DNA of 64,000 nt from Gloeobacter violaceus PCC 7421 (GTDB lineage: Bacteria > Cyanobacteriota > Cyanobacteriia > Gloeobacterales > Gloeobacteraceae): NCBI RefSeq assembly GCF_000011385.1, contig NC_005125.1:3224001-3288000 (forward strand), written 5' to 3'. Below, piece after piece: positions 15,933 through 56,318 of this stretch. A program made the translations under genes and the position numbers. Position 1 is the first letter of the stretch. The number at the start of each line of letters is the position of its first letter. The notes under the pieces were generated by a model. That model searched no databases. It saw only the letters and a program-made list of their open reading frames with translations, and was not told the DNA's origin.

Positions 15933-16475
15933 TCACCGAAAATCAATGTTCCCCTCTCGAAACCAACGAGCTGCGATCTTCGGGTGTGCCACTAGTAAAT
16001 CATGGTCAGGGCGCTTGATTTCGCCGACTAGGCCCGGCACAAGCCGAAGCAATTCGGCGTCGAAGTCTTTGAAATTTGCTGTGATGAGTATTCTGGCTCG
16101 TCCGGCAACGGCAGTCCCGAGCACATGGGCGTCCTCCTCGTCTTTGAGGGCGACCACCCCCATCCCTCCAAGAGTCACACTGGGGAATTCCTGGAATGGA
16201 CCCAACCGGGCTAGTTCTGCCACCGCCTCGGCGAACCCCTTGGAGGCGACCGGGTCGTAGCCCAGGCGCATCAGAACCACCTCAAGGCGATTGAGCATCC
16301 CCCAGGAAACGACCAGTTGCAGCGGACCCAAAGCGCAAGAGCCGTCCCGCACGCACTGCACCAGAAACTGCGCCGCCGTATCCGTCCGACCCTTACTTAA
16401 GCCGAGGACGTAGGCCACAAAGACATTGAGGTCAAGCAACACCCGCCACACAGGCGGGGGAATCCTCTGGCTCAA
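15933..16475 (-). CDS. PIN-domain toxin (VapC-like)
   Basis: 180 residues with a PIN-like nuclease core: an N-terminal LLDLNVFVAYVL (first catalytic Asp), a middle LEVVLMRLGYDP helix, DEEDAHVLGTAVAG (acidic cluster) and ARILITANFKDF (final acidic strand, Asn in place of Asp). It would cleave RNA when freed from antitoxin. The first codon is TTG overlapping the antitoxin stop by four bases (16472-16475), so they are translationally coupled. The tail IAARWFREGNID is unremarkable. Confidence 0.8.
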   Translation of the reverse strand: MSQRIPPPVWRVLLDLNVFVAYVLGLSKGRTDTAAQFLVQCVRDGSCALGPLQLVVSWGMLNRLEVVLMRLGYDPVASKGFAEAVAELARLGPFQEFPSVTLGGMGVVALKDEEDAHVLGTAVAGRARILITANFKDFDAELLRLVPGLVGEIKRPDHDLLVAHPKIAARWFREGNIDFR

Positions 16476-16825
16476 GGACGAATCCCCTGCCCGTCCACGG
16501 CGTCCACCGCCATCGCAAGGATGGCGTCCTCATCCTCGGGAACCGATGCATTTGCAGGCAAAGACTGCGCCACTCTGCGGGCCGCGGCATCGAAACGATC
16601 AGCCCGCACCACCCCTGCTATCCGGTTTACCAGATGCCTGAACGCCTCCTCATCTCCTTCCAGTTCGCGCAGGGCGCTTCGCACATCCCCGCTCAGCAGT
16701 GCGTACAGCTTGAGCGCCGCCCCCGCCACCTGCGCCACCGAACGCGACTCCGCACGGGCAATCTCGCGGATCGCCTGGGCTGACTCGGCATCAGAGTACG
16801 CCGTGACTACTTCCTTGCCAACCAT
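16472..16825 (-). CDS. Antitoxin of the PIN-toxin pair
   Basis: 117 residues. The N-terminal half resembles a small DNA-binding fold of the ribbon-helix-helix kind (DAESAQAIREIARAESRSVAQVAGAALKLYALLSG). The C-terminal part (DEEAFRHLVNRIAGVV...VPEDEDAILAMAVDAV) would bind the toxin. It precedes and overlaps the PIN gene, as antitoxins do. A perfect 13-bp palindrome lies 14 bp upstream of its ATG and probably is the operator for autoregulation. Identification is positional as much as sequence-based. Confidence 0.72.
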   Translation of the reverse strand: MVGKEVVTAYSDAESAQAIREIARAESRSVAQVAGAALKLYALLSGDVRSALRELEGDEEAFRHLVNRIAGVVRADRFDAAARRVAQSLPANASVPEDEDAILAMAVDAVDGQGIRP

Positions 16826-19001: not shown

Positions 19002-20243
19002 ATGATCTGCCATGGAGATTATCATCCGTTGAAGAGGAGCAAAGACATTACCCCTCCGCTGTTGTTCAACACTGCGGCCGTCGGCCGCGAGCCGCTGTCG
19101 GTGGGCGAAGCGCTCACCCGAGCCGGGCAAGTCGCCGATTTTTGCGCCGCCAACGCCGCGCGCATCGACGAAGACGGCGCCGTGCCGATCGAAGAATTTC
19201 GGCGGCTGGCAGCGGCGGGACTGTTGGCCGTTCCCCTCGATGCGTCTTTGGGCGGGGCTGGACTCGGGGTGAGCCCCGGCCGCACGCTGGCGCTGCTGAG
19301 CGTGCTGGAGCAGGTCGGGCGGGGCAACCTGGCGGTGGGCCGCATCTACGAGGGGCACGTCAACGCCCTGCAGCTGATTCAGATTTTCGGCTCGCGCGAG
19401 CAACAGTCGGCCTGTGCCGCAGCCGTGCACGGCGGCAAAATTTACAACGTCTGGAACACCGAGGACGAGGACGGCACGAAGATTGTCCCGCTGCCGGGGG
19501 ACCGCTATCGCCTGGAGGGGGCTAAGACCTTCGCCTCGGGCACCGGGTTGGTGGAGCGGCCGATCATCGGTGCGGCCCGACCCGACGGCGGCTGGCAGAT
19601 GGTGATCGTTCCGATGGAACTGTACACGGGGCGCGTCGATCCTGACTGGTGGCAACCGCTCGGGATGCGCGCCTCGGCCAGCTTCAAAGTCGATTTTTCG
19701 GGCATCGAGCTGGGAGAAGACGCCCTGCTGGGCGTTCGCGGCGATTATTTGCGCCAGCCCTGGCTGACCGCCGGGGTGGTGCGCTTCGCAGCGGTGCAGT
19801 TGGGCGGAGCGGCGGCCCTGCTCGACTGCACCCGCGAACACCTGAGAAACCGCGGCTGGCAAGAACACCCCTACCAGCGCGAGCGCATGGCCCGCGCTGC
19901 CATCGCTGTCGAAGGGGGACGCCTGTGGTTGCAGGGGGCGGCCGAGCGCATCGACCGGTGGTTGGACAATCCGGCCGGGCCAGCCGGCGGCGAGGGGTTG
20001 GTGGCCTACGCCAACATGGTGCGCACCGCCGTCGAAGCCGCCTGTCAGGAGGTCGTGCAACTGGCCGCCAAGTCCGTGGGGGCGCGCTGTCTGTTGCGCC
20101 CACACCCGGTCGAGCGCATCGTGCGGGATCTGACGCTCTATTTGCGCCAGCCCGCCCCAGATGCGGCCCTTGCCCAACTGGGTACCTACGTCATCGAACA
20201 AAACGCTCCCATTCAGGCGCTGTGGCACGATGGGCGTCACTAG
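19002..20243 (+). CDS. Acyl-CoA dehydrogenase-like flavoprotein
   Basis: About 413 residues. The N-terminal helical domain, central beta domain (GAKTFASGTGLVERPIIGA; LGMRASASFKVDF) and C-terminal helices (AAVQLGGAAALLDCTREHL ... VEAACQEVVQLAAKSVGARCLL) follow the acyl-CoA dehydrogenase fold. The N-terminal segment GRIYEGHVNALQLIQIFGS fits a substrate-binding region. The catalytic Glu could not be placed. It is the first gene of a four-gene group; the next gene starts 14 bp inside it. Oxidation of an acyl or amino-sugar intermediate is inferred from context. Confidence 0.8.
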   Translation: MICHGDYHPLKRSKDITPPLLFNTAAVGREPLSVGEALTRAGQVADFCAANAARIDEDGAVPIEEFRRLAAAGLLAVPLDASLGGAGLGVSPGRTLALLSVLEQVGRGNLAVGRIYEGHVNALQLIQIFGSREQQSACAAAVHGGKIYNVWNTEDEDGTKIVPLPGDRYRLEGAKTFASGTGLVERPIIGAARPDGGWQMVIVPMELYTGRVDPDWWQPLGMRASASFKVDFSGIELGEDALLGVRGDYLRQPWLTAGVVRFAAVQLGGAAALLDCTREHLRNRGWQEHPYQRERMARAAIAVEGGRLWLQGAAERIDRWLDNPAGPAGGEGLVAYANMVRTAVEAACQEVVQLAAKSVGARCLLRPHPVERIVRDLTLYLRQPAPDAALAQLGTYVIEQNAPIQALWHDGRH

Positions 20244-20994
20244 CGCCGCCCTGGGCGAGACTCCCCTGCACCCGCCCGAGGCGGCCGCCGCCCTCGGTTC
20301 GACGCTGGTGGTCGCCCCGCACCCGGACGACGAGTCGCTTGGCTGCGGCGGGACCATCGCCCTATTGCGCCGTCTGGGCCTGCCTGTGCGGGTGCTGGTG
20401 GTGAGCGACGGCACCCGCTCCCACCCCAACTCCCGGCGCTACCCACCCGCGGCCCTGCGCGCCCTGCGCGAGGCGGAGGCGCGCGCCGCCCTTGCGGTGC
20501 TGGGGGTCGCCCCGGCCGCCGTCACGTTTTTGGGCCTCAAGGACGGCGCAGTGCCTTTTGAGGGGGACGCCGATTTTGCCGATGCGCTCGGCCGTTGCCG
20601 CCGCTATCTGGCCCAGCTGGAGCCCGTGCGGACCGTCGTGCTGCCCTGGCGGCGCGACCCGCATCCGGATCACCGGGCCGTCTGGAACCTGATGCACCGC
20701 GCGAGCGACGGCTTCACGGCCTTCGCACGCAGCCTCGAATACCCCATCTGGCTGTGGGAGCAAGGTGAACGTTTCCACCGGCCGATGGAAGGCGAGGTCT
20801 GTATCTGGCGGCTCGCCATCGGCCCGGTGTTGGCGCTCAAACGCGCCGCCGTGGCCGCCCACCGTTCCCAGACCAGCGATCTCATCGACGACGACCCGGA
20901 AGGTTTTCGGCTCACCCCCGAGACGCTCACCCACTTCGAGCGCCCCTGGGAATGTTACCTGGAGGCACCATGCAACCCGAACGCCCCTCGCTGA
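20230..20994 (+). CDS. PIG-L family N-deacetylase
   Basis: 254 residues from ATG 20230, overlapping the previous gene by 14 bp. The zinc site is VVAPHPDDESLGCGG (AHPDDE hallmark) and DPHPDHRAVWNLMHRA later. This family removes acetyl from N-acetylglucosamine conjugates, as in GPI-anchor, mycothiol and bacillithiol synthesis. Here the neighbours are an acyl-CoA dehydrogenase, a NodS-like methyltransferase and a glycosyltransferase, so an acylated or methylated amino-sugar product is plausible. The next gene also overlaps its end. Confidence 0.88.
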   Translation: MGVTSAALGETPLHPPEAAAALGSTLVVAPHPDDESLGCGGTIALLRRLGLPVRVLVVSDGTRSHPNSRRYPPAALRALREAEARAALAVLGVAPAAVTFLGLKDGAVPFEGDADFADALGRCRRYLAQLEPVRTVVLPWRRDPHPDHRAVWNLMHRASDGFTAFARSLEYPIWLWEQGERFHRPMEGEVCIWRLAIGPVLALKRAAVAAHRSQTSDLIDDDPEGFRLTPETLTHFERPWECYLEAPCNPNAPR

Positions 20995-21551
20995 TGCCCG
21001 AGTACTTTGAAGCGCTCTACTGCGAAAACGCCGACCCCTGGGACTTCGAGACCAGCCCCTACGAGGATGCCAAATACACGGCGACCCTCGACGCCCTGTC
21101 TAAGCCCCGCTACCGCTCGGCGTTTGAAATCGGTTGCTCGATCGGGGTGCTCACCGCCCGCCTCGCCGAACGTTGCGAGGCGCTCCTGGCGGTGGATGTA
21201 TGCGATAAGGCGCTCACCCGGGCGCGCGCGCGCTGCCGGACGCTCGCCCAGGTAAGCTTCGAGCGGTTGCGGGTGCCCGAGTGCTACCCGAGCGGACCGT
21301 TCGATCTGACCCTGGTCTCGGAGGTGGGCTACTACTGGTCCTGGAGTGAACTGCGCCGGGCCCAGAGGTTGCTTTTGGAGCACCTGGAACCCGGAGGTCA
21401 ACTGCTTTTGGTGCACTGGACGCCCTTTGCCAGGGACTACCCGCTCAGGGGCGACGAAGTGCACGATGCCTTCGACTCGCTCGCGGGGCTCAGCCACCGC
21501 CTCGGGCGGCGCGAGGAGCAATACCGACTGGACCTGTACGAGCGGATTTGA
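20970..21551 (+). CDS. NodS-like class I SAM methyltransferase
   Basis: 193 residues from ATG 20970. The start overlaps the deacetylase by 25 bp. It opens with EYFEALYCENADPWDFETSPYEDAKY, the NodS-family signature, then FEIGCSIGVLTARLAERC as SAM motif I and LLAVDVCDKALTRAR as motif II. Members include NodS, which N-methylates deacetylated chito-oligosaccharide in Nod factor synthesis. N- or O-methylation of the deacetylase product is inferred. Its last 62 bp overlap the convergent glycosyltransferase gene. Confidence 0.85.
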   Translation: MQPERPSLMPEYFEALYCENADPWDFETSPYEDAKYTATLDALSKPRYRSAFEIGCSIGVLTARLAERCEALLAVDVCDKALTRARARCRTLAQVSFERLRVPECYPSGPFDLTLVSEVGYYWSWSELRRAQRLLLEHLEPGGQLLLVHWTPFARDYPLRGDEVHDAFDSLAGLSHRLGRREEQYRLDLYERI

Positions 21552-22743
21552 GCGCCTGCTTCCAGAGGACAATGCGCCTGCGCAACTGCCGGATCGCTTC
21601 TTCAACCTCGCTTTTGGGGGCGTTCGCGGGATCTTCGGGGTTCAACCGCTCCCAGAGCAAGCCAAAAGCTTGGCAAGCGGACAACTCCTCCGCAAGGCGT
21701 TCCGACGGCACCCGCAATCGGGTTGCCAGTGCCGCAACCTCTGCGTCGGTCGATGCCAGGCTGCGGGGCTGACGCCAGAGTTGGCGCAACCGAATGCGAT
21801 TGACCAGGCGCTCCTCGGTCCTGCCGACCGCTTCGACCAGATACGGCTTGCGCCCGGCGCCCACGGTGCTCCAATCGGCCAGTTGGGCGGCCAGACCCAT
21901 CCCTGCACGTCCATAGCGGCGGGCACTGGTGATCACTTTCACCAGCGGGCTGTGGCGGATCCCGGCGTCGATGCGCCGCAGGGCGCAGTAAAGGGCGACA
22001 TCTTCGGGGGAGCGCACGGCGGGCAAGCCCCCCGCCCGGGCGTAAGCCTCGGCGCTGAGCGCCAGGCTGGCGCCGAAGTGCTGGTAATGGCGGGGCCAGG
22101 CGTCGAGCGGATCCGGGTCGATGCAGGCTTCCAGTTGGGCCGTCAGATACTGGTAGCCCACGTCGTACAAAAAGCAACGGCGCGCCTGGGCCTCCAGAGC
22201 CTGTCGCTCGTTGTCGTCGGTGAGGATGCGGCCCCCCACGGCGTCGGCACCGCGGTCGATCTCGAAGGCGGTGGCCGCAAGCCAGTCGAGAGCCACCCGG
22301 GTGTCGCCGTCGGTGGAGGCAATGATCCCCCGGGCTTTGCCGGCCCCGGCGAAGCGCCGGTAGGCTTCGTCCATCAACAATTGCCGGGCGCGGCCGACGT
22401 GCGCTTCGGCGGCGGGCAGGGTCAGCTCGACGATGTGCAAGCGCAACTGCGGCCGGTCGTCGGCGAAGCGGCGGGCGATGTCTGCCGTCTGGTCGCGGCA
22501 GTTGTTGGCGAGCACGATCACTTCGTAGCTGCGCGGATCGAGGGGTAAGCCGGGCCGTTCGATCTGGTAGGCGAGAGCAGCGAGGGTGCTCTCGATCCGT
22601 TCCGCCTCGTCGCGCACCGGCACAATCACACAACTGCGGCACTGCGGCAGCAACGGCGCATCGACCAGGGGCAGATGGGACAGGCGGGCGAGGAGGGGAC
22701 TCGCGGACCCTAGCGGCCGCAGCGGGCGGCAAATGTGCAGCAT
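21490..22743 (-). CDS. Family 2 glycosyltransferase
   Basis: 417 residues. GT-A core: SCVIVPVRDEAERIESTLAAL and YEVIVLANNCRDQTADIARRF are nucleotide-sugar binding strands. IIASTDGDTRVALDWLAAT contains the DxD metal motif. A C-terminal helical region (about residues 280-410) has no transmembrane helices, so it is likely cytoplasmic. It converges on the NodS-like gene with a 62-bp overlap, unusual for unrelated genes. It probably belongs to the same pathway as the three plus-strand genes. Confidence 0.82.
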   Translation of the reverse strand: MLHICRPLRPLGSASPLLARLSHLPLVDAPLLPQCRSCVIVPVRDEAERIESTLAALAYQIERPGLPLDPRSYEVIVLANNCRDQTADIARRFADDRPQLRLHIVELTLPAAEAHVGRARQLLMDEAYRRFAGAGKARGIIASTDGDTRVALDWLAATAFEIDRGADAVGGRILTDDNERQALEAQARRCFLYDVGYQYLTAQLEACIDPDPLDAWPRHYQHFGASLALSAEAYARAGGLPAVRSPEDVALYCALRRIDAGIRHSPLVKVITSARRYGRAGMGLAAQLADWSTVGAGRKPYLVEAVGRTEERLVNRIRLRQLWRQPRSLASTDAEVAALATRLRVPSERLAEELSACQAFGLLWERLNPEDPANAPKSEVEEAIRQLRRRIVLWKQALKSARTGPVGIAPRAARGGG

Positions 22744-23464: not shown

Positions 23465-24565
23465 CTAAAGATCTTCCGGCAGCGACAGGCACAAACGGGA
23501 TTCGATTTCTTCGATGCTGGGCAGGCTGCGCTTGATCTCCTCCGGGAGCAGTTCGTAGGTGGAGACACCCATCGGACGGCGGGCATCGCGCAGGGTGTAC
23601 TCGGCAATTACCCGGTTGCTCGATTTGCATAAAATCAGCCCGAGGGTCGGCCGATCGTCGGGATGGCGCAACAGATCGTCCACCGCCGACAGGTAAAAGC
23701 CGAGCTTACCCGCGAATTCGGGCTGGAAGCTGCCGGTCTTGAGATCGATGACCACGAAGCATCGCAGCTTGAAGTGATAAAAAAGCAGGTCGATATAAAA
23801 ATCTTGATCGCCCACCTCCAGGTGGTACTGGCTGCCCACGAAGGCAAAGCCCCGGCCTAGTTCCAGCAAAAACTTGCGGATGTGTTCGAGCAAACCCTGC
23901 TCCAGGTCGCGCTCCCGTGCCGCCGGCCCCAGCGATAAAAAATCGAACAGATAAGAGTCCTTGAGCGCCTGCTGCGCCAGATCCGACTGCACCGGCGGCA
24001 GCGTGGCCGCGAAGTTGGTGGCGGCACCGCCCTGGCGCTCGAAAAGCCCAACGCCTATCTGGTGGGTAAGCACGCTGCGGCTCCAGCCCTGGGCAATCGT
24101 CTGGCGGACGTACCAGGCGCGGGCGGCAGGCTCTTTGACGGCATCGAGGATGGCACAGTTGTGAAACCAGGGAATTTGTGCAGCAAGCTGCTGCACAAAC
24201 CCTTCGTCGGGATAAGCCTCGGCGAAGGCGCGCATGTATTTGAGGTTGCGCACGGAGAACCCTTTGATCTCAGGGAATTCACGGCGCAGATCGCCCGAGA
24301 GGTGATCGATCACCTTGCTGCCCCAGCCCTGACAGCGCTGCTGCCGCAGCACGTCGCGGCCAATCTGCCAGTAGAGCGCCACCAGTTCGCGGTTGACCGC
24401 CAGGGCCGAGCGGATCTGGGCGGCGCGGATGCGCGCTTTGAGACCGCCCAGGTACTCCTCGTAACCGTCGAAGGTCAACTCACCGGCCACGGACCTACCC
24501 CCATCCGACCAAACATGAACGCTTGTCCATGATTTCATCAAAACACCAGATGGACAATTGTGCAA
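23465..24565 (-). CDS. DUF1016/YhcG-type PD-(D/E)XK nuclease domain protein
   Basis: 366 residues; the start may instead be the ATG at 24538. The N-terminal helical DUF1016 domain has LVALYWQIGRDV, VIDHLSGDLRREFPEIKGFSVRNLKYMRAF and IPWFHNCAILDAV. The C-terminal nuclease fold shows GDQDFYIDLLFYHFKLRCFVVIDLKTG, giving the Asp and the Asp-x-Lys metal site. Its family is often found near restriction or mobile elements, but its action is not characterised. No methyltransferase partner is present. Confidence 0.85.
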   Translation of the reverse strand: MHNCPSGVLMKSWTSVHVWSDGGRSVAGELTFDGYEEYLGGLKARIRAAQIRSALAVNRELVALYWQIGRDVLRQQRCQGWGSKVIDHLSGDLRREFPEIKGFSVRNLKYMRAFAEAYPDEGFVQQLAAQIPWFHNCAILDAVKEPAARAWYVRQTIAQGWSRSVLTHQIGVGLFERQGGAATNFAATLPPVQSDLAQQALKDSYLFDFLSLGPAARERDLEQGLLEHIRKFLLELGRGFAFVGSQYHLEVGDQDFYIDLLFYHFKLRCFVVIDLKTGSFQPEFAGKLGFYLSAVDDLLRHPDDRPTLGLILCKSSNRVIAEYTLRDARRPMGVSTYELLPEEIKRSLPSIEEIESRLCLSLPEDL

Positions 24566-54543: not shown

Positions 54544-55179
54544 TTATTCGAATAAACGTACCAGCCAATCGGTAAATTTTCGCGCGATGCTTGTTTGAGG
54601 CTGAAGCGATTGACTTGTGATTGCTTTTCCCAGAGGATAGCCCGGCTCATCGCACCAAGCAAGATAGGTATGGATAACTGCTTTGCTCCGATGCACCTCT
54701 TTGAAAGTTGCTATTTGCATTGCACTGGCATCGTCAACACATTTTCGCGCGAATTCGAGCGATGCTGGCTCTGCAAGCTGTGCGCAGAAGTCCTCTAGCA
54801 TTGCACTATCTTGATTGTTTGGCATGAGCCAGAATCCAAGCTTAGGTATATCTGTGTTGCTTGTGACTATAGTTCCATCAGGATCAGGAGTCTGTGGCAA
54901 TATATAGTCATACTGATTCAATTTTGCATTTACGCTCTGCCATCTGCTTTGAATGGAAGGGTTGTCTGCATCAAGCATGACACCTATCGCTTGTGGCGGA
55001 TCAGGACGCACAATGAGGGCATTCATTCGGCTCAAAACCCTTTTATCTGAACCACATTGGTAAATGCCAAAAGTTTCCGGAACATTACGTGCTTTGCACA
55101 AAGACATGACAACATGGCAATCATTAACTCCTTCAACGAGCAATACTTTGCCTAAATCTTGTTCGCAAATTTTGCTCAT
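54544..55179 (-). CDS. TOPRIM-like (DUF3226-type) protein, partner of ATPase
   Basis: 211 residues. Motif VLLVEGVNDCHVV (Glu16, Asp20) and GVMLDADNPS (Asp70-x-Asp72) give a TOPRIM-like metal site. The rest is helical with no known catalytic motif; the C-terminal SIARKFTDWLVRLFE is amphipathic. It starts 2 bp after the ATPase stop in the same direction, strongly suggesting a joint system. The DNA is AT-rich compared with surroundings. Reminiscent of Gabija/PARIS/OLD pairs in which an ATPase and a TOPRIM nuclease act together. Confidence 0.78.
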   Translation of the reverse strand: MSKICEQDLGKVLLVEGVNDCHVVMSLCKARNVPETFGIYQCGSDKRVLSRMNALIVRPDPPQAIGVMLDADNPSIQSRWQSVNAKLNQYDYILPQTPDPDGTIVTSNTDIPKLGFWLMPNNQDSAMLEDFCAQLAEPASLEFARKCVDDASAMQIATFKEVHRSKAVIHTYLAWCDEPGYPLGKAITSQSLQPQTSIARKFTDWLVRLFE

Positions 55180-55181
55180 GC

Positions 55182-56318
55182 CTACCGCACTTCAACATCC
55201 ATTTCAATGGCATCGGTGAGCGTTTCAGATGTATACTCAGTCGCTTTAATGAATTGATCTTTTACGTCTAGCCTGAAGAATGCACCAAGGGCAGGGTATT
55301 TATTCCACGCAATATCAAATCCTTCGATACAATCACGGCTGTGCGTTGTTGCAAAAACTTGAACATTAAGTCTTTTCGATAGTTGGAAAACAATGTCCCA
55401 AACTTTTGGTTGAATACTCCAATGTAATCCATTTTCGAATTCATCGATTAGTAAAAGTCCGTTCCCCGCGTTTACAAGAGCAACGATTATATGGAACAAA
55501 CGAGTCATACCGTCTCCCATACTTTTGAGAGGAATCGGTTCATCTATCCCTTTGATCTTTACTAATGGAATACGTCTCTCGGCTGAGCGTCCTCTGTTTA
55601 GATCTCTGCTGATATCTTCTACAAAAGCAATTCCTGAAACTCGCTCATCAATCAGGCCAAGTGCAGAAATGACTTCAGACTCCAAGTCGGTTAAACTTGT
55701 TAAATCCCAGAGAGCTGCTAATTTTCGCGTAGGCATGTTCTCAGTTGGAACAAATTGCCATTTATAATTTATACTAGGCTCTTGTCGTTCATAAAAAATC
55801 CGCGAACTCCGCTGAATTTCTCTTACATCTCTATCAAGCCTGAAAAGTCTTCTAGTTCTCTCGCCCTGTTCCACTACAAGAAAAATCTCAGCATTGGATG
55901 GATCTTCATCAAATTGCTCATTCGATATGCGAATTTTTCTTGTTGTTCCTGCGTTATCGTTTTCGTCTAAATATGCTGCAGTACCAATGTGAAGCTTTGA
56001 GCCGGAAGATATTTCCCCAAGCGTAATGCCCTCCCCTTGCATTCTCGGTAGCTTTCGATTGTAGAAGAGATGCCTCGCGGAATGACCAAGAAAATTTTGA
56101 AAATGATTCTGAACTTCGCCCAACCAAATTTCTTGCCTAGATTCTACAAGTTCAATAAGTACATTGGATGAAGCATTACTCGCATAGAGCTCCACTGCTT
56201 CAAGAAATGCGCTTTTTCCAGCATTATTTTTACCGACAACTAAGTTGACACGACTTAGTCTGCCCACCTCAAGGTGTCGAAAGAGCCTGAAATTGTTAAT
56301 CATAAAGGATTTCAGCAT
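55182..56318 (-). CDS. AAA ATPase of OLD/AAA15 type
   Basis: 378 residues. Walker A is VGKNNAGKSAFLEA (29-36), the signature-like PLKSMGDGMTRLF lies at 264-275, and Walker B is LLLIDEFENGLHW (288-300) with the His switch THSRDCIE at 326. The N-terminal MINNFRLFRHLEVGRLSRVNLVVGKN is typical of ABC-like SMC/RecF/OLD ATPases. No nuclease domain of its own, so the TOPRIM partner downstream is likely the effector. AT-rich gene in GC-rich chromosome: foreign origin is likely. Confidence 0.85.
   Translation of the reverse strand: MLKSFMINNFRLFRHLEVGRLSRVNLVVGKNNAGKSAFLEAVELYASNASSNVLIELVESRQEIWLGEVQNHFQNFLGHSARHLFYNRKLPRMQGEGITLGEISSGSKLHIGTAAYLDENDNAGTTRKIRISNEQFDEDPSNAEIFLVVEQGERTRRLFRLDRDVREIQRSSRIFYERQEPSINYKWQFVPTENMPTRKLAALWDLTSLTDLESEVISALGLIDERVSGIAFVEDISRDLNRGRSAERRIPLVKIKGIDEPIPLKSMGDGMTRLFHIIVALVNAGNGLLLIDEFENGLHWSIQPKVWDIVFQLSKRLNVQVFATTHSRDCIEGFDIAWNKYPALGAFFRLDVKDQFIKATEYTSETLTDAIEMDVEVR

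Follow-up and report, generated by a model that had tools for sequence, protein, structure and literature searches.

Four overlapping genes in the genome of Gloeobacter violaceus PCC 7421 raise the question of whether a flavoprotein, a deacetylase, a methyltransferase and a glycosyltransferase act in one pathway and, if so, what that pathway would make. The genes lie in the window that we analysed (the whole stretch of 64,000 nucleotides), and all four products score above the Pfam gathering cut-off:

19002..20243, plus strand: gene 1, acyl-CoA dehydrogenase (ACAD)-fold flavoprotein (PF08028/PF02771)
20230..20994, plus strand: gene 2, PIG-L (LmbE-type) zinc N-deacetylase (PF02585, E 9e-25)
20970..21551, plus strand: gene 3, NodS-like class I SAM methyltransferase (MT; PF05401, E 1e-17)
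21490..22743, minus strand: gene 4, family 2 glycosyltransferase (GT2; PF00535, E 7.5e-9)

Organization of the locus

The three plus-strand genes overlap one another, and gene 4 converges on gene 3, with which it shares 62 bp. The sizes of the first two overlaps depend on the choice of start codons. ATG starts at 20230 for the PIG-L gene and 20970 for the MT gene give overlaps of 14 and 25 bp; the longest open reading frames begin at 20161 and 20952 and would give 83 and 43 bp instead. We prefer the starts at 20230 and 20970 because a start codon is retained there in orthologue alignments. With these conserved starts, the arrangement described in an earlier note on this DNA is exact, including its overlaps of 14, 25 and 62 bp. 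Short overlaps between genes 1 and 2 and between genes 2 and 3 are seen again elsewhere (for example, 4 bp in Roseomonas and Bradyrhizobium), and the GT2 gene also overlaps convergently in the cassettes of Komagataeibacter and Deinococcus.

Co-occurrence of the four genes

We examined the linkage of the genes by performing four profile searches of 96 cyanobacterial genomes. The same 18 genomes contained an orthologue of each gene and, PIG-L paralogues aside, none of the four occurred without the other three. The PIG-L profile also matched paralogues elsewhere, with far weaker scores. All four genes reside on one contig in each of the 18 carriers; in one of these genomes the GT2 gene lies 34 kb from the rest of the cassette and is still retained. 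The chance that two independent draws of 18 from 96 genomes are identical is 7e-20, a figure that is optimistic given shared descent. The same pattern was observed at the genus level (13 of 59 genera).

Using the MT alone as a query over 84,980 species genomes, we listed its best loci (at least 80). Genes 1 to 3 stood together at 77 of the 80 best loci and all four genes fell within 8 kb at 68, several of the others being contig ends. Among the best loci listed, the GT2 gene was downstream and convergent in 67 of 71. Pairwise distances of the four proteins were correlated (0.69-0.84, 24 loci), and six Gloeobacterales genomes carry the same four genes in the same order. A Gloeobacterales genome other than this one (L023) encodes an in-frame fusion of PIG-L and MT, in line with the earlier note's mention of such fusions elsewhere. 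A single frame spanning GT2 and ACAD in Methylobacterium aquaticum (L010) was set aside; its linker resembles an out-of-frame C-terminus and may reflect a frameshift. No fifth partner gene recurred across lineages in the cassette neighbourhoods. Finding the arrangement in six phyla, together with the identical presence pattern in 96 genomes, places it far beyond chance. The four genes are a real functional unit, as the earlier note had supposed.

Distribution

The cassette occurs in Cyanobacteriota, Bacteroidota, Chloroflexota, Deinococcota, Pseudomonadota and Actinomycetota, on both plasmids and chromosomes. Plasmid records containing cassettes or near-cassettes came from Deinococcus, Methylobacterium, Roseomonas, Bradyrhizobium, Sulfitobacter, Komagataeibacter, Sphingomonas, Paracoccus, Limimaricola, Rubrobacter, Acinetobacter, Novosphingobium, Sphingobium, Cupriavidus and Kitasatospora. 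The distribution is patchy, since the cassette is rare in Bacteroidota (2 strong matches in 148 genomes) and Chloroflexota (1 strong match in 251 genomes). Such patchiness is as expected for an accessory pathway that is transferred or frequently lost. Retention or loss as a block in several phyla implies that the pathway must make something specific.

Two Chloroflexota loci contain ACAD, MT and GT2 genes and lack an orthologous PIG-L. We found no PIG-L substitute beside either cassette (one locus stops at a contig end), and the two genomes hold distant PIG-L paralogues only. No relatives were present among viral contigs. Two records filed as 'Acinetobacter phage MD-2021a' (CAKLQH020000004.1 and CAKLQF020000002.1) were rejected as viral carriers; they span 230-300 kb, have ordinary bacterial metabolic genes around the cassette and are probably misfiled host contigs. 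A PADLOC search returned only a weak match, of the methyltransferase to mads_2.

Gene 1 resembles flavin monooxygenases

Gene 1 and its relatives are usually annotated as acyl-CoA dehydrogenases, and Pfam and NCBIfam both assign gene 1 to that superfamily. The pathway might accordingly make a glycolipid, with gene 1 acting as a true acyl-CoA or acyl-ACP dehydrogenase on the acyl chain. A profile built from 15 gene 1 sequences ranked DszC, MsuC and TdsC above every true dehydrogenase, with the KijD3 nitrososynthase close behind. DszC and TdsC were also the top matches of the AlphaFold model (mean pLDDT 84) by Foldseek and VIA-align. Fold alone leaves the class of gene 1 undecided because the lead of DszC/TdsC is just 1-2 Z units; true dehydrogenases, short-chain enzymes among them, score nearly as well as the monooxygenases (Z 39 vs 41).

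The catalytic residues separate the two classes more clearly. We compared gene 1 with MCAD and IVD at the positions that we take, from collinear alignment, to be equivalent to MCAD Glu376 and IVD Glu254. The former is proline (P384) in 28 of 28 gene 1 sequences, and the latter, before R261, is V, I, L, A or M. Gene 1 has the fold and Pfam domains of the acyl-CoA dehydrogenase superfamily but lacks the catalytic glutamate of canonical members at both positions. It contains an invariant E-G-H-x-N-A motif; in the alignment, the histidine of this motif falls on that of the 'GYH' in DszC. At 48.1 bits, it falls far below the DszC equivalog cut-off of 850. From profile, model and residues, gene 1 is probably a flavin-dependent monooxygenase-like oxidase, and the earlier note's plain 'acyl-CoA dehydrogenase' gives way to this assignment. 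The missing glutamate and the closest resemblance to DszC-type flavin monooxygenases make oxidation of a sugar product likelier than dehydrogenation of a lipid. Neither acyltransferase nor ACP genes are recurrent neighbours of the cassette, and we consider the glycolipid reading unlikely.

In Deinococcus, gene 1 carries an extra N-terminal domain of 390 residues that Pfam does not recognize. Its relationship to GH1 glycosidases (E 1e-20 against a GH1 gene nearby) points to a sugar. It is present in four ACAD proteins:

L018:4584-6947, GH1-like-domain ACAD protein
L012:4657-6996, GH1-like-domain ACAD protein
L017:3230-5602, GH1-like-domain ACAD protein
L107:4896-7244, GH1-like-domain ACAD protein

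PIG-L, methyltransferase and GT2 are intact family members

The catalytic motifs of the other three proteins are intact in aligned orthologues, and none of the four proteins has a strongly hydrophobic (membrane-like) segment. PIG-L scores 88 bits against PF02585 (cut-off 28.2), and its zinc motif PHPDDE...DPHPDH is invariant in 26 orthologues (H54, D56, D57, D166, H168, D170 and H171). The MT profile matched the solved methyltransferase 4isc with E 9e-50 and NodS (3ofj) with E 9e-27; against the NodS equivalog (NF041650) the MT reaches 77.7 bits, below the cut-off of 300. GT2 scores 36 bits against PF00535 (cut-off 23.3) and has a DxD-type motif. Its TDxD and ED motifs (T144, D145, D147, E247 and D248) are invariant in 26 orthologues. 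The fold matches of GT2 have low TM-scores and point to neither donor nor acceptor.

These families leave room for a natural product that contains no amino sugar, in which PIG-L would serve as an amidase for some other substrate and oxygen or carbon would be methylated by the MT. PIG-L superfamily substrates are diverse, and the structural relatives of the cassette protein include 4-oxalmesaconate hydratase and LnmX. The NodS-like family, too, is broad. The closest structure to the PIG-L profile, however, is diacetylchitobiose deacetylase, and the nearest PIG-L structures are sugar deacetylases. The exchange of PIG-L for a polysaccharide deacetylase in Rubrobacter, described below, also argues against a product without a sugar, and we regard this reading as quite unlikely.

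Variant cassettes point to an amino sugar

In Rubrobacter, PIG-L is missing and a polysaccharide deacetylase (CE4, PF01522) takes its place in the same run with ACAD-like, MT and GT2 genes. This variant lies on a Rubrobacter indicoceani plasmid (L102:2981-7632), where a Pyr_redox_2 flavoprotein gene sits between MT and GT2; its product may supply electrons to the ACAD-like protein. The relatives next in line to the cassette MT are NodS-like domains within long proteins, each with a polysaccharide deacetylase domain; GT2 is present as well in three of the following four:

L101:2955-6431, NodS-like MT plus polysaccharide deacetylase
L119, NodS-like MT plus polysaccharide deacetylase
L120:2322-5840, NodS-like MT plus polysaccharide deacetylase
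L121:2726-5449, NodS-like MT plus polysaccharide deacetylase

Of three cases newly read, two have the GT2 domain, as does Gloeothece; none was detected in the MT-CE4 protein of a Chloroflexota genome. The long proteins apparently represent a related system contained in a single chain, found in cyanobacteria and one Chloroflexota genome.

The Rubrobacter replacement and the GT2-MT-CE4 proteins indicate that the same three activities recur with unrelated deacetylases. NodS methylates the terminal glucosamine amine only after deacetylation (PMC5080398). An amino-sugar substrate is the best reading of the deacetylase swap and the NodS-like MT/CE4/GT2 proteins, which lend weight to the earlier note's analogy with Nod-factor chemistry.

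The same observations would also suit a cassette that adds N-methylated amino sugars to a polymer or to a glycan of the envelope (exopolysaccharide, LPS or a chitin-like oligomer) in the manner of Nod factors. Additional GT4/GT2 genes adjoin the cassette in Novosphingobium and Sphingobium, and glf and a GT gene lie downstream in some Deinococcus. Export, polymerase and flippase genes, by contrast, do not recur beside the cassette across phyla, and the lack of membrane-like segments in the four proteins also speaks against this reading. We view glycan decoration as unlikely.

Neighbouring genes and a possible link to stress

Outside cyanobacteria, a catalase gene lies within about 8 kb at 7 of 19 plasmid-record loci. 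Assuming four catalases per 5 Mb, a generous figure, 0.2 would be expected; the association was spotted post hoc and the 19 loci are not independent. Other non-cyanobacterial loci adjoin Ku/LigD, Dps, trehalose genes or spore photoproduct lyase. The Gloeobacter cassette is without obvious stress-gene neighbours. Many carriers, in genera such as Deinococcus, Hymenobacter, Rubrobacter, Nostoc and Methylobacterium, are tolerant of drying or radiation. These neighbourhoods hint that the cassette product is a stress metabolite, which we take as a lead only.

Several other features of the window were recorded. Slightly downstream of the cassette, positions 23465-24565 (minus strand) encode a YhcG-type PDDEXK nuclease with a DUF1016 N-terminal domain. 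Two small genes at 15933-16825 (minus strand) overlap by 4 bp and look by eye like a toxin-antitoxin pair with a PIN-domain toxin. An A/T-rich island (54544-56318, minus strand; GC about 0.40 around 55-56 kb) contains what look, by eye, like an AAA15/OLD-like ATPase gene (55182-56318) and, after it, one for a small protein (54544-55179) resembling DUF3226/Toprim partners. The two genes are possibly an imported defence pair.

A proposed pathway

We propose, with a probability of roughly 0.5, that the cassette encodes one self-contained pathway for a small N-methylated, oxidised amino-sugar conjugate. GT2 would move an N-acetylated sugar onto an acceptor, and PIG-L would take off the N-acetyl group. 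The NodS-like MT would methylate the amine freed by PIG-L, and the ACAD-fold flavoprotein would then use reduced flavin and oxygen to oxidise the product, in the way of its DszC or nitrososynthase relatives. In many lineages the conjugate would probably be part of a stress response. The linkage, the all-or-none co-occurrence, the intact motifs of PIG-L, MT and GT2, the missing dehydrogenase base and the exchange of deacetylase are observations; the kind of sugar and acceptor, the sequence of reactions, the type of oxidation and the physiological role are inferences. More tentatively, the six-phylum cassette may yield a previously undescribed N-methylated, N- or C-oxidised amino-sugar metabolite that protects against oxidation, desiccation or radiation.

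All parts come from known enzyme families. The pathway and what it makes seem not to have been described before, and a keyword search of open-access papers returned no literature on the cluster. The separate annotations ('acyl-CoA dehydrogenase', 'PIG-L', 'nodulation S protein' and 'glycosyltransferase') become one testable pathway, in a cassette compact enough to be expressed whole.

Comparison with known systems

We compared the cassette with characterized enzymes and pathways. Gene 1 is matched best, by profile and by fold, by the flavin monooxygenases DszC, TdsC and MsuC and the enzymes KijD3 and DnmZ. Nucleotide amino sugars are the substrates of KijD3-type enzymes (entry 4kcf). These monooxygenases differ from gene 1 in sharing about 20% identity with it, and gene 1 scores 48 bits against the DszC cut-off of 850; in a collinear reading, Q383 of gene 1 occupies the position of DszC His391. 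Judged by sequence, the cassette MT and 4isc very probably belong to the same family; that entry was deposited merely as 'Methyltransferase', with no function attached.

BshB and MshB are among the relatives of the cassette PIG-L. They share its fold and the same kind of zinc motif and act on a GlcNAc conjugate, a resemblance that would suit a bacillithiol- or mycothiol-like thiol pathway. The cassette PIG-L scores far under the equivalog cut-offs (55.8 and 47.8 bits vs 195.25 and 182.5 for BshB; 23 vs 224 for MshB), and the cassette has no cysteine ligase. BshC is absent from this genome and was detected in three control genomes by the same search. The BshA and MshA glycosyltransferases are GT4 enzymes, whereas that of the cassette belongs to family 2. 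A thiol product is very improbable, and the bacillithiol-type chemistry raised in the earlier note is not supported.

The Nod-factor core of NodC, NodB and NodS differs from the cassette in several parts. The cassette has PIG-L instead of the CE4 enzyme NodB, lacks a membrane-type NodC and adds a flavoprotein, and its MT reaches 78 bits where the NodS model asks for 300. A search for the NodA acyltransferase gave no match in this genome, nor in control genomes. What the two systems have in common is a GT2, an N-deacetylase and a NodS-type N-methyltransferase, which in the Nod-factor core work in series on a glucosamine residue.
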